Part shown: positions 12,361 through 44,952 of the stretch, piece after piece
Position numbering within the stretch: position 1 is the stretch's first letter
Layout: every line of letters begins with the position of its first letter
NCBI GenBank assembly: GCA_001769655.1
Contig: MEPC01000036.1
Location: 1 to 44,952 of the forward strand
Origin: Bacteroidetes bacterium RIFCSPLOWO2_12_FULL_37_12
GTDB lineage: Bacteria > Bacteroidota > Bacteroidia > 2-12-FULL-37-12
Direction: 5' to 3'
DNA length: 44,952 bases
Notes under the pieces: model-generated
Seen by the model: the letters and a program-made list of their open reading frames with translations, nothing else
Databases searched by the model: none
Told to the model about the DNA's origin: nothing
Made by a program: the position numbers and the translations under genes

Positions 12361-12588
12361 ATGACAAAAATATCAATACCGATTAAAGATAACCTTGCAC
12401 AAGCGCTTGGAATTGAATATCTGAAAAAATATTTCAGCAGACAAATGGAATTATTAGAATTGCAGCAAGTAGCCGATAAAATAGGTAAAACCATTCAAAA
12501 AGTAAATATTAACTGGGATAAAGAATTTGAAAAAGCCCGGCAACTTGCTTGGAATGAATATAAAACCAAACTGCCTGTTAAAAAATGA
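12361..12588 (+). CDS. Putative antitoxin of a PIN toxin pair
   Basis: A 75-residue charged protein directly upstream of, and overlapping (ATGA, 12585-12588), a PIN-domain gene. The N-terminus (MTKISIPIKDNLAQALGIEYLKKYF) could form a short strand and helix for DNA binding, and the C-terminal half (FEKARQLAWNEYKTKLPVKK) is a basic amphipathic tail of the kind that covers a toxin's active site. I do not recognise a named family; assignment rests on size, overlap and partner. TAATTTTG at 12326-12333 is a likely -7 element for the pair. Confidence 0.65.
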   Translation: MTKISIPIKDNLAQALGIEYLKKYFSRQMELLELQQVADKIGKTIQKVNINWDKEFEKARQLAWNEYKTKLPVKK

Positions 12589-13010
12589 AAAAATATGTGT
12601 TGGATGCGAATGTGCTTATGTCTGCATTGATTAGCGGAAAGCAAATTTATCTATCAATATTTGAGCGAATTCAATTTTTTGTTCCTGATTTTATTATTAC
12701 AGAAATAGAAAAGTATAAGTTTCTTATTCTTGAAAAAACCAAATTAAAAACTTCAGAATTTAACGAATTTGCCAATAAACTTTTTCAAAACCTTTCTATA
12801 ATTCCATCATCATATATTTCTGAAGAAAACATTAATTATGCAATGAATCTATGTATGGACATTGACGAAAAAGATACCATGTATGTTGCCTTATCACTAC
12901 AAATGAGCATTACTTTAGTTACCCGTGATATTCCACTTTTTAAAGGGTTAAAGAAAAAGGGATTTAAAAATGTTATTTTATTTGATACCCTTTTTAACGA
13001 AATGGAATGA
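12585..13010 (+). CDS. PIN domain ribonuclease toxin (VapC-like)
   Basis: A 141-residue PIN domain. The acidic metal-binding residues are present: Asp7 (YVLDANVLMS), Glu40 (FIITEIEK), Asp in DEKDTMYVAL and Asp in TRDIPL. Such toxins cleave RNA, commonly initiator tRNA or rRNA. The start codon overlaps the antitoxin stop, implying translational coupling. All active-site positions are intact, so it is probably functional. The family also includes stand-alone PIN nucleases, but the small upstream partner favours a toxin-antitoxin module. Confidence 0.8.
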   Translation: MKKYVLDANVLMSALISGKQIYLSIFERIQFFVPDFIITEIEKYKFLILEKTKLKTSEFNEFANKLFQNLSIIPSSYISEENINYAMNLCMDIDEKDTMYVALSLQMSITLVTRDIPLFKGLKKKGFKNVILFDTLFNEME

Positions 13011-13145: not shown

Positions 13146-13154
13146 CTTTTTTAA

Positions 13155-13295
13155 GAGCACCTCTAAAAACTTGTCTTTTGTCCAGAAACTACGTTGTCAG
13201 AAATTTTTAAATCCTCATTTACCCAATGTAAACTCCGGTTTAAAAATTTCTTTCGCCTTGTCTCTGTCCAAAATCCATAGTTTTTAGAAGTACCC
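13155..13295. repeat. GCACCTCTAAAAAC-ended foldback element, copy A
   Basis: The left terminus GAGCACCTCTAAAAACT is mirrored at the right by AGTTTTTAGAAGTACCC (two mismatches to the other copies). Inside, GAAATTTTTAAA and TTTAAAAATTTC form a second 12-bp stem. It sits just after tRNA-Leu and just before the histone H1-like gene. Copies B (15341) and C (25048) share only the termini. Confidence 0.85.
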
Positions 13296-13310
13296 TTAAT
13301 ACAACCCATC

Positions 13311-39734: not shown

Positions 39735-41147
39735 ATGTTGACAAACTTTTTTAAATATTATCTGTTTTTTTTTACAATCCCTTTATTTGCCTTTTCTCAA
39801 ACTTTAAAAGACGAAGATTTCAACGAGTTGTATTTCAGCGAGAGTTTTGACAATAACCGAAGGGGTTGGCTTATTCTGAATTCCCAGGATAATTTTTTTA
39901 TCATAAAAGACGGCTACTACGAATTACAACGCCGGAATGAAAAATCCTCCGATATTGTTTTATGTCCCTTTACTTCAAAGATCTCTGATTACCAGCTTTC
40001 GGTCCGTTTCGCGTTGAACACAACAGGCGTGTCTCCCACCTTTTCCGGTCTTATTTTCAATGCCACTAAAGATGGAACCAAGGCACTTGCCTTTGAAGTC
40101 AGTACGCAACGGGAATTCCGGATACGTAAATTAAATGGTACCAATTGGATATATCTCACCTCAGGCGGAACGGTTCAGGGCTGGCAAAAAACAAATGCCA
40201 TTACTTCAACAAGTGCTGAATATGAATTGTTGGTTCAGACAAAAAATGATGTCTATGACTTTTATATCAACGGAATTTTTGTTTCTAATCAAACTATTTC
40301 TAATACTTCTACGGGTGACTTCGGAATTACATTGGGACCTGCTTCAAAAGTCAAAGCCGATGAATTAACCTTGATGACCACGATGGAAACAGCGGCAGGA
40401 GCAGTAGCAGGAAAAAAAGGTGAAGAAACGGCTGTAATTAAAAATGATCTCACGCAGAAAAACATGACCGAAAAAGAAAAACAAAGAAATGCAAATCAAA
40501 GTGACCGGATCACCGAATTGGATAAAGAGTTGGAACAAATCAAAAAGAAAGTAACTGCACTCGAAGAGGAAAATGCAGTGTTAAAGAATCAGGATGAAAA
40601 TGCCAGAGTGAATCAACTGAATAAGACAATTATGGATTTACAAGCAGAACTTAATAAATCGTATCAAACTATTGATAACCTTAAGTCGGAAAATCAAGGT
40701 AGAATTAGTAACCCGGAGATGGCTTCTGATAGTGGAAGAAATAAACCATTAGACGAATATATTTATCAGAAATATACAAAATTGGTAAAAGAAAATATCA
40801 CGTTAAAAAATGAATTAGACGATGCAAAAGGCAACGGGACAAATCCTTCTTCGCCTTCTAATTCATCCTCAGAAATAGTGGCACTGAAAGAAAAAATACG
40901 GGTTTTAGAAGAACAACTACGCATGTCAAATCAGTTTAATCTGAATTTATTGAAAGAAAAAAATTCTGTTCCTAAAACCAAACAAACTTTTATACCCTCT
41001 GATGGGGAATATCATGTAGTTCAAAAAGGAGAAACGCTTTACAGTATTTCCAAAAAATACCCGAACCTAACGGTAAAAAAAATAATGCAATGGAACGGGA
41101 TGAATGATAATAAATTGGAGTTGGGGCAGAAGTTGAGAGTGAGGTGA
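39735..41147 (+). CDS. LysM protein with laminin/ConA-like and coiled-coil domains
   Basis: About 470 residues from the ATG at 39735, with a signal peptide (YYLFFFTIPLFAFSQ). Residues ~25-215 are a concanavalin-like beta-sandwich (YFSESFDNNRRGWLILNS, DGYYELQRR, GDFGITLGPASKVKADELTL). A long coiled coil follows (240-420; ITELDKELEQIKKKVTALEEEN), then a C-terminal LysM domain (YHVVQKGETLYSISKKYPNL). LysM binds peptidoglycan or chitin-like glycans, so the protein may link a surface sandwich to the wall. It probably shares an operon with the coiled-coil gene upstream. Confidence 0.8.
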   Translation: MLTNFFKYYLFFFTIPLFAFSQTLKDEDFNELYFSESFDNNRRGWLILNSQDNFFIIKDGYYELQRRNEKSSDIVLCPFTSKISDYQLSVRFALNTTGVSPTFSGLIFNATKDGTKALAFEVSTQREFRIRKLNGTNWIYLTSGGTVQGWQKTNAITSTSAEYELLVQTKNDVYDFYINGIFVSNQTISNTSTGDFGITLGPASKVKADELTLMTTMETAAGAVAGKKGEETAVIKNDLTQKNMTEKEKQRNANQSDRITELDKELEQIKKKVTALEEENAVLKNQDENARVNQLNKTIMDLQAELNKSYQTIDNLKSENQGRISNPEMASDSGRNKPLDEYIYQKYTKLVKENITLKNELDDAKGNGTNPSSPSNSSSEIVALKEKIRVLEEQLRMSNQFNLNLLKEKNSVPKTKQTFIPSDGEYHVVQKGETLYSISKKYPNLTVKKIMQWNGMNDNKLELGQKLRVR

Positions 41148-41150
41148 TCT

Positions 41151-41310
41151 AAACCTTCAAGGTTAGCCAGCGCCTCTAATCCAAACCTTCAAGGTTAGCC
41201 GGCGCCTCTAATCCAAACCTTCAAGGTTAGCCGGCACCTCTAATCCAAACCTTCAAGGTTAGCCGGCGCCTCTAATCCAAACCTTCAAGGTTAGCCGGCG
41301 CCTCTAATCC
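41151..41310. repeat. Five tandem 32-bp repeats with internal palindrome
   Basis: Five contiguous copies (starting 41151, 41183, 41215, 41247, 41279) of a 32-bp unit containing the palindrome AACCTTCAAGGTT and GCCGGCGCCTCTAATCC. Copies differ by single bases (AGC/CGC, GGCACC in copy 3). A reverse-oriented AACCTTGAAGGTT closes the array at 41317-41329. It lies between convergent genes. Confidence 0.95.
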
Positions 41311-41336
41311 ATACTAAACCTTGAAGGTTCTTATAT

Positions 41337-42859: not shown

Positions 42860-43110
42860 TTATTTTTTTACCAATTTATCATATTTCTTCATTAGGTTTT
42901 CGTGTGGCTTTCCAAGCCCTTATTAGATTGAGCTATACTACGCTCAAATCCTTTTCTTACTTCAATAGGCATAACATTCCACAAAGTAAGTGTTTCTTTT
43001 GCAAATATTTTTGCAACAGCAAACATGGTTTTCTTTTTTTTCTCTGATAAAAGACGAACGTAATTTACGATTTGAATGTCAATTTTCGGTGGGATTTTGT
43101 ACCGGAACAA
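42860..43110 (-). pseudogene. Frameshifted small antitoxin-like gene
   Basis: One frame reads MPIEVRKGFERSIAQSNKG and then leaves the family pattern and stops at 42892; one base over, the reading continues GKPHENLMKKYDKLVKK to a TAA at 42860-42862. Joined, this gives the C-terminus typical of small Bacteroidota antitoxins (P-x-EV...QS...G-GKPHE-x2-MKKY). A single-base loss in TTGGAAA explains it. The N-terminal half (IVNYVRLLSEKKKKTMFAVAKIF) is weakly conserved and its start is unclear. No toxin gene adjoins it. Confidence 0.6.
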
Positions 43111-43263
43111 TCCCTGATTAAAAAAGCTCCGGAAGAACCCAGAGAAATAAATGAATTTAAACCGGGTATATGTCCTTATTGCAAAACAGACACGATGCTC
43201 ACGATTGAAATATTTTTTAAGCGAGGTCCTCCCGTGTCATTTCTAAAAACAGTGCATGAATAA
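43072..43263 (+). pseudogene. Possible transposase C-terminal remnant
   Basis: A 63-codon open stretch ending FKPGICPYCKTDTMLTIEIFFKRGPP. The C-P-x-C pair followed by a basic-hydrophobic tail and RGPP recalls the end of IS91-type transposases. No upstream portion survives, and its first 39 bp overlap the antitoxin remnant on the other strand. It could instead be an unrelated fragment. Confidence 0.35.
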
Positions 43264-43540
43264 AAATCTTAAATTTTACATCGCAAAAAAAATTGCAAAT
43301 GCGCAGGGTGGGAGTGCTCTTTTCATCAAAGAAAAAAACAAGATAAAATTTTTTGAACTATTCAAAAAGCAAATCCAAAAAAGAAATTTATTATTTAAAA
43401 AGAGGAAGAAAAGGAACTTTTATGAAAAAAATAGCAAGAAAATCAAAGTAACCGTTCTATCTATTTAACGAAATCCCCATAGAAAAAAAAACTCAACAAA
43501 CAAGGGGAAAAAAAACTTCCATCCAGAGGCAGATTCAGTG
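43264..43540. other. Intergenic remnant with repeated CTCAACAA-CAAGGGGAAA word
   Basis: No convincing gene. A lysine-rich frame (43256-43468) overlaps the previous fragment but its composition is driven by A-runs. At 43482-43510 a word matching the first 29 bases of the window occurs (CTCAACAAACAAGGGGAAA here, CTCAACAATCAAGGGGAAA there), preceded by an A-run in both places. Confidence 0.6.
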
Positions 43541-43602: not shown

Positions 43603-44166
43603 TTATATTTTGTCCGAATATTTGGAAATAATGTTTGATTTAATTTTTCCTAATTGTTCTCGTATTTTATTTTCTTGTTCATTTATGTCGTTTAATTCTA
43701 ACAAGTGTTGATTTCTAATATCTTCAGTAAATATGTTTCCTGTCAAAAGAATATTATTTAATAGTTTGACAATTTTATTTTTAGAGTCGTGAATGAATTT
43801 TGAAGATGCTATGCTGTCAATCTTACTTTCTTTGTAGTCATCTTCTGCGAAAAATAACAAGATATGGCTACAACTTTTTTCAAGTTGATTCTTTTGAGAT
43901 ATTAAATCATCTTTCTGATACTCAAAAGAGGATTTGTTTAACAAACTTTCCAAACTCTTCTTTAAGGTTCTGTAATCATTAATAAATGAGTCAAAATTAT
44001 TTAGTTCTTTTGTTACTTTTTCACTCAACAGTTTTGATGTAAATTCAATTTTTTTAAATCTTTTTCCAGTTAAATATTGCCATATATAATAGATTATGGC
44101 TCCAATTATACCAATTGCAAAGGTTATGTAAATCCAATTTTCTTTTATTTTATCTATCCATTCCAT
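43603..44166 (-). CDS. Membrane-anchored coiled-coil protein, unknown function
   Basis: A 187-residue protein with one N-terminal membrane helix (WIYITFAIGIIGAIIYYIWQYL, about residues 12-33) and a basic stop-transfer (TGKRFKK). The rest is polar and helical with two likely coiled coils (LLSEKVTKELNNFDSFINDYRTLKKSLESLL and HLLELNDINEQENKIREQLGKI). I recognise no family. It overlaps the upstream gene by 13 bp, so the two are probably translated together. A membrane-tethered helical partner next to a soluble alpha/beta protein is a common two-gene plan in defence systems, but this is only suggestive. Confidence 0.65.
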   Translation of the reverse strand: MEWIDKIKENWIYITFAIGIIGAIIYYIWQYLTGKRFKKIEFTSKLLSEKVTKELNNFDSFINDYRTLKKSLESLLNKSSFEYQKDDLISQKNQLEKSCSHILLFFAEDDYKESKIDSIASSKFIHDSKNKIVKLLNNILLTGNIFTEDIRNQHLLELNDINEQENKIREQLGKIKSNIISKYSDKI

Positions 44167-44837
44167 ATTTTATCAATTAGATTTGATTTCAAGTTAAAAA
44201 TATTACTCAAATCGTTATTAAAATTTATAATCTCAATTTTTTGATTTGTTGAATACCAGTCTAATGGTTCTATCAAGCAACTAATTTCTGGAAAATTCAC
44301 TTTAAATCTTTTAATTGCTTTATGGTAAAACTCAATGTTCATTTGCATCATCCAACCTGAATGAAAAGCAAAGTTTTTTATTTTTGTTTCTGTTGCCCAA
44401 AGTTTAAGGCGTTCAAAAATTCTGTCAGCAAGTTGCGTTTTGTCTGGAAGTCTGTCATTGAATAATTCGTAAAGATGACCAATACAAATATTTAGTCCTT
44501 CTTGTCTTAATCGTTTAACGTGTAACAATTTTGCTTCGTATTCATCACCCGCATTATATGAAGCAATCAAAATTATATCGCAATTATTGTCTAAAAGTGA
44601 TAGTGTATCTTTTAGTTCGGGATTATATGACCACTTGAAAAATGTCCAACCTTCGTCAAAATTGATTATTAGATATTTATTGTATAGATTAAAGAAACGA
44701 GCTTTAACTCTGTTTCTAAAATCTTCACTATTGCGAATAGTACCTATTTCCGAGTCAAATAAGTCGGATATGTTTAAGTTAAAACTATTTGGAATAAAAT
44801 GTACATTATTCAAAAGTCTTTCTACAAAGTCAATCAT
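44154..44837 (-). CDS. Alpha/beta protein of unknown function
   Basis: A 227-residue soluble protein. Alternating strands and helices (KYLIINFDEGWTFFKWSYN, NCDIILIASYNAGDEYEAKLL, GLNICIGHLYELF, NFAFHSGWMMQMNIEFYHKAI, EISCLIEPLDWYS) suggest a Rossmann-like or barrel fold. Conserved-looking acidic and histidine residues (DEGW, GDEYE, GHLYE, FHSGW) could be catalytic. I do not recognise the family. The start codon is the ATG at 44837, and its end overlaps the membrane protein gene. The 115 bp to the window end carry no recognisable promoter. Confidence 0.65.
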   Translation of the reverse strand: MIDFVERLLNNVHFIPNSFNLNISDLFDSEIGTIRNSEDFRNRVKARFFNLYNKYLIINFDEGWTFFKWSYNPELKDTLSLLDNNCDIILIASYNAGDEYEAKLLHVKRLRQEGLNICIGHLYELFNDRLPDKTQLADRIFERLKLWATETKIKNFAFHSGWMMQMNIEFYHKAIKRFKVNFPEISCLIEPLDWYSTNQKIEIINFNNDLSNIFNLKSNLIDKIWNG

Positions 44838-44952
44838 CTAATTATTCGTTTAGGGTCTTTCTAAAATTCTCTATAACGCTTTATATTGTTTTGAGCAATT
44901 TTTTTTATGAAAGTACGCAAAAACCCCCACCCAAAATTTTGTTGAGAAAAAA
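44838..44952. other. Terminal non-coding stretch
   Basis: AT-rich, no gene seen. TTTGTTGAG (44938-44946) is the reverse of the CTCAACAAA at 43491-43499, so the two-gene unit is bracketed by a short inverted word. GAAAGTACGCAAAAA (44910-44924) resembles the AAAGTACGTTTTTA motif seen elsewhere. Confidence 0.5.

Follow-up and report, generated by a model that had tools for sequence, protein, structure and literature searches.

The overlapping gene pair in the window (the whole stretch of DNA analysed here, 44,952 nt in length) is probably passenger cargo of an IS91-family insertion sequence (IS). The 3′ end of the pair abuts a hairpin, C, that belongs to a decayed copy of this element, and its 5′ end abuts a leader, P, that precedes four other cargoes. 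The element of which C forms the 3′ terminus belongs to the IS91 family and has two genes, a XerC/D-like tyrosine recombinase followed by an HUH Y2 transposase. The more general result is this IS91 setting, in which a covarying hairpin at the element's end tags accessory genes; a defence role of the pair itself is plausible. The positions of the features are collected in Table 1.

Table 1. Features of the gene pair and of the repeats surrounding it in the window.
Feature	Position	Strand	Basis
Gene 1, soluble orphan protein, 227 aa	44154..44837	-	ORF list, family searches, structure model
Gene 2, N-terminal membrane helix and helical bundle (predicted), 187 aa	43603..44166	-	ORF list, hydropathy, model
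Leader P, 87 bp, directly 5′ of the pair, holds TTTGTTGAG at 44937-44945	44866..44952	-	Repeat search, own genome
Site C, 67-bp hairpin TAACAACTAAGG...GTTGCACTGAATCTGCCTC, 10 bp past the gene 2 stop codon	43526..43592	-	
Tail T (TTGTTTGTTGAG...CTATGGGGATTTCGTT), interior side of C, holds CTCAACAAA at 43491	43456..43513	-	
IS91-family (Y2_Tnp) transposase C-terminus remnant, pointing toward T and C	43096..43263	+	

The two genes are encoded on the minus strand and overlap by 13 bp. When the 1273-bp segment was shuffled 1000 times with a first-order Markov model, the longest open reading frame (ORF) had a mean length of 62 aa and a maximum of 168 aa, and both ORFs of the pair are therefore longer than expected by chance. 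The GC content of the pair is 26.8%, versus 35.4% for the window. An earlier note on this DNA had described the pair as a soluble protein with a membrane-tethered helical partner, and hydropathy agrees with this description: gene 1 lacks any hydrophobic peak, while gene 2 has a single N-terminal one (residues ~11–29, KD 1.85). Structure prediction, suggested as a check in that note, was informative for one of the two proteins. The single-sequence AlphaFold2 model of gene 2 contains five helices at a mean pLDDT of 78.5, and the protein is probably a membrane-anchored, all-helical bundle, a fold that we regard as tentative because the remaining four models were much poorer. A fold search with this model returned generic helical bundles only. 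The gene 1 protein looks, from its sequence, like an alternating alpha/beta protein; its own single-sequence model is uninformative (mean pLDDT 35.9) and no catalytic motif was identified, leaving its description as 'catalytic-looking' unsupported.

The sensitive profile searches agree with the earlier impression that the pair matches no family, as neither protein had a significant match in Pfam, PADLOC, NCBIfam, PHROGs, or the PDB. The best PADLOC match of gene 2 was CARF_TM at an E-value of 0.068 and gene 1 had none, placing neither protein in a known anti-phage family. Homologues of gene 1 were absent from the genome contigs, phages, plasmids, IMG/VR viral contigs, and 395 genomes of the phylum; two weak genome matches (24% and 31% identity) were rejected as unrelated ORFs. 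For gene 2, the IMG/VR viral contigs, the one sequence set scanned beyond the family libraries and the PDB, likewise contained no homologue.

Along the direction of the genes, the order of the features is P, the two genes, C, T, and a shared repeat. The ~360 bp past T are common to two other loci (L009 and L017) at ~92% identity, a level that holds across ~500 bp of the copies compared, and position 43096 is the left boundary of this common repeat. The transposase remnant in the window is too short for a Pfam match, but its homologous copies at L009 and L017 match PF04986. Beyond C and T, this genome carries truncated Y2_Tnp ORFs; its IS91 transposases are all decayed. The decayed mobile region noticed earlier is thus real and contains the truncated C-terminus of an IS91-family transposase. 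The earlier note had also seen the pair bracketed by CTCAACAAA and its reverse complement (near 44938). Both motifs are present, but they are not private to the pair: each lies within a dispersed repeat, and the note had missed that these repeats form a family tied to an IS91-family element.

P occurs in five copies in its own genome, which are identical where assembled and are each followed by different cargo. In all five cases the contig terminates at or within P, pointing to a multi-copy sequence beyond it. P does not fold and was not found in other genomes, and patterns for P and C gave no matches in viral contigs. C is present in 26 copies in this genome; one scan of the genome contigs with a C-core pattern gave six scattered matches. 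Of 70 C sites, drawn from this genome and related ones, 56 have the stop codon of a same-orientation ORF between −25 and +60 bp, as compared to 17.6% of random non-coding stretches, although these ORFs were called mechanically and individual cases may be spurious. At the other end of the window, positions 1–29 are a T-type repeat, so both contig ends lie in one repeat family; contig C38 begins with sequence that overlaps the first ~69 bases in reverse, and the repeat is followed by a DDE transposase (PF01609) at 107–1663.

In the class, a covariance model of C matched 18 of 395 genomes and its improved version 26 of 390; among the genomes searched, that of the window is the sole member of its order. 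The copies of this genome alone gave no covariation, and the signal appeared with the class-wide copies. Across Bacteroidia, 78 stem cells changed on both sides versus 19.7 in shuffles, with none of 500 shuffles reaching 78. Stem cells were paired in 90.1% of cases (81.1% in shuffles), and the covariation score was 0.281, versus 0.040–0.078 for slid structures. C has no match in Rfam, and counts of G·T versus A·C in the stem (leaving aside the conserved 23-45 pair) did not single out the folding strand. The stem sequence of C is conserved across genera, along with the IS.

Within the 390 genomes, C occurs in 26, Y2_Tnp in 27, and both together in 13, where 1.8 would be expected (hypergeometric 2e-10). 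Y2_Tnp genes beside C point toward it, mostly from a distance of ~420 bp and with C on the opposite strand; the decayed copies in two genomes (G220 and G266) lie farther away. It is this combination of co-occurrence, transposase orientation and distance, and stem covariation that identifies C as the 3′ end of an IS91-family element. Against the IS91 reading, Y2_Tnp matches are lacking in the other 13 of the 26 genomes with C, where C would be a remnant or have moved by other means. Intact copies encode a tyrosine recombinase of 258–307 aa, which is XerA-like, followed by a transposase of 349–395 aa that scores 454 bits against the IS91 model NF033538 (cut-off 125) and is thereby an IS91 Y2 transposase. 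In two complete genomes, each with two near-identical copies, the elements measure 2.37 kb and 2.43 kb, with C at one end and GTTGAAC at the other. At the left end, the defining feature is a sequence (GTTGMAC); structure was seen outside it, in the flank, and in some copies only. IS91-family elements are characterised by rolling-circle transposition into a tetranucleotide target; comparison of the flanks outside C gave only a loose ACWGCNNN motif. One genome (G220; L097, L098, and L099) has genes separated by repeated non-coding modules of ~500 bp, each made up of C, T, and a leader with ACAAGTT at its end, resembling a cassette array in which each unit has its own leader.

The setting of the pair can be compared with that of cargo in another genome (G003). 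Here, the left end runs into the recombinase gene on one contig, and a second contig is a stretch of cargo with C on one side and this left end on the other. As the latter is the architecture of the window, the pair most likely sits between two IS91 copies. P would then border a second copy at its left end; this copy, which is unassembled, would have the same orientation, making the two flanking copies direct repeats. The Y2 transposase would nick the folded C end and replicate through the element by rolling circle, and replication would at times overrun the other end, carrying neighbouring genes along with the IS, a route proposed for ISCR elements. Transcription may be driven from P.

The proposed mechanism resembles ISCR-type capture, and the transposase places the element in the IS91 family. 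Rolling-circle mobilisation of neighbouring genes has been proposed for ISCR elements, and ISCR1 has outward promoters (PMC13393415). As with these IS91-like elements (which have oriIS and terIS ends and mobilise adjacent resistance genes), the element stands beside variable cargo and has a structured end. Unlike ISCR, the elements described here carry a tyrosine recombinase, their cargo is rich in toxin–antitoxin and defence-like genes, and the 3′ ends of the cargo lie against the end hairpin in a single orientation. Compared to the IS91 family at large (NF033538, Y2_Tnp), intact relatives share the IS91 transposase, with a tyrosine recombinase just upstream of it, and an end in structured DNA. 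They differ in a terminal hairpin that is conserved and covaries across Bacteroidia genera; many hairpin copies, moreover, lack a transposase, and the element copies in the window's genome are decayed. In the open-licence literature, we found no paper joining IS91, anti-phage, Bacteroid-, and toxin–antitoxin.

The cargo found in the slot before C bears on what the pair might do. In the window's genome, it includes PIN-domain toxins, a HigB/HigA-like pair, Fic, DUF2200, an OLD/GajA-like TOPRIM ATPase, an nSTAND NTPase, a SacI-like restriction enzyme, and a DNA methylase. Another gene beside C (L013:3447-4394) matches the PADLOC candidate defence family PDC-S42 at an E-value of 2.9e-122. Because toxin–antitoxin, restriction, and candidate defence genes occupy the same slot, the prior for a conflict system is raised for the pair as well. 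The most tentative steps of our proposal build on this: the helical partner encoded by gene 2 could hold the soluble protein at the membrane or relay its signal there, and the pair might be a module of inter-microbial conflict, of the toxin–antitoxin or abortive-infection type, given how many same-slot genes are of that kind. This function is read from the neighbourhood alone, and some of the cargo is not conflict-related: a trypsin-like protease, a beta-lactamase-family protein, an outer-membrane barrel, and several unknowns also precede C. A conflict or defence function is, in our estimate, at most an even bet.

A related reading takes the pair as an anti-phage or toxin–antitoxin system in its own right that is carried by the IS. 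It concerns function rather than setting and is thus compatible with passenger cargo, and we give it somewhat less than an even chance. The membrane-tethered partner, the tight overlap, and the low GC content speak for it, as do nearby PDC-S42, OLD/GajA-like, HigBA, PIN, Fic, restriction enzyme, and methylase cargoes. It is weakened by the lack of a PADLOC match, relatives, or an identified catalytic motif, and by the share of same-slot cargo that is unrelated to defence.

A different setting would be an integron cassette without an integrase (CALIN), in which C is an attC site, the pair was placed by an IntI encoded elsewhere, and the IS91 element inserted at attC later. C is attC-like in several respects: it has AAC...GTT boxes, an unpaired spacer, a covarying stem, a conserved non-Watson–Crick position, and a two-base bulge. 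Genes stop just ahead of it in a single orientation, as compact cargo similar to cassette contents, and some copies form consecutive gene–C units (L012). However, its boxes match RYYYAAC/GTTRRRY in part only, AAC and GTT being (near-)invariant and the outer positions partial. attC sites within arrays are not known to conserve their stem sequence, contrary to the cross-genus conservation of C. Furthermore, C is tied to the IS91 transposase rather than to IntI and is part of an IS91-family element. At the TIGR02249 cut-off, the only true integron integrase among the 395 class genomes (G141; L116 / L136; 422 bits) lies in a genome that has no C site, either near the integrase or elsewhere, although a CALIN could have received its cassettes from a distant source.

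The left ends of the elements bring attC-like structures back in another way. Of nine IS left ends, at least five border attC-like palindromes that are unrelated in sequence (TAACG...TGTTG), and the IS91-family element may therefore favour such palindromes as targets; their fold z-scores are modest (−1.8 to −2.8). These palindromes (TAACG...stem...TGTTG) occur at the left ends of L166, L167, L137, L138, and L140, in several genera. That several left ends adjoin them also fits a cassette origin, as does the report of attC sites next to ISCR28, an IS91-like element (PMC12772301). The sites beside ISCR28 are, in contrast, integron-type and software-called, whereas those described here are attC-like palindromes in genomes without IntI. 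On balance, we consider an integrase-placed cassette unlikely.

Equally improbable to us is a bolder version of the capture idea, in which the two-gene IS91 elements of Bacteroidia are an integron-like gene-collecting platform that operates without an integron integrase, the pair being an undescribed conflict system collected in this way. On such a platform, the tyrosine recombinase and/or the Y2 transposase would act on folded, attC-like ends, and single genes or small operons would be captured in one orientation, almost without flanking DNA, and expressed from the leader. Finally, that C and T are mere REP-like repeats of 3′ untranslated regions or terminators, unconnected with the mobility of the pair, is very doubtful: most copies do lie 3′ of genes and terminator-like sequence often follows T, but an identical P stands at the 5′ side, the IS91 transposase keeps a near-fixed distance and orientation, and nearly identical whole elements terminate at C in complete genomes.

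If the preferred link between C and the IS91-family element is true, C can serve as a search tag that locates mobile accessory genes of Bacteroidota by their 3′ ends. It has already led to toxin–antitoxin, restriction, and candidate defence genes, and offers a route to listing unknowns such as the pair described here. The same link would define an IS91 group that leaves compact, cassette-like units in one orientation without an integron integrase.

Elsewhere in the window, three further observations were made. Overlapping repeat copies (119 bp, 91.6% alike) span 41147–41329, between a LysM-like ORF and an aminopeptidase-like gene. A large imperfect palindrome at 13151–13299 (DNA fold z-score −5.8), which is not a C site, comes right after a tRNA-like sequence. 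Beside these two lies an ORF (12585–13010) that starts with MKKYVLDANVLMSAL and is PIN-domain-like, with no evident antitoxin partner.
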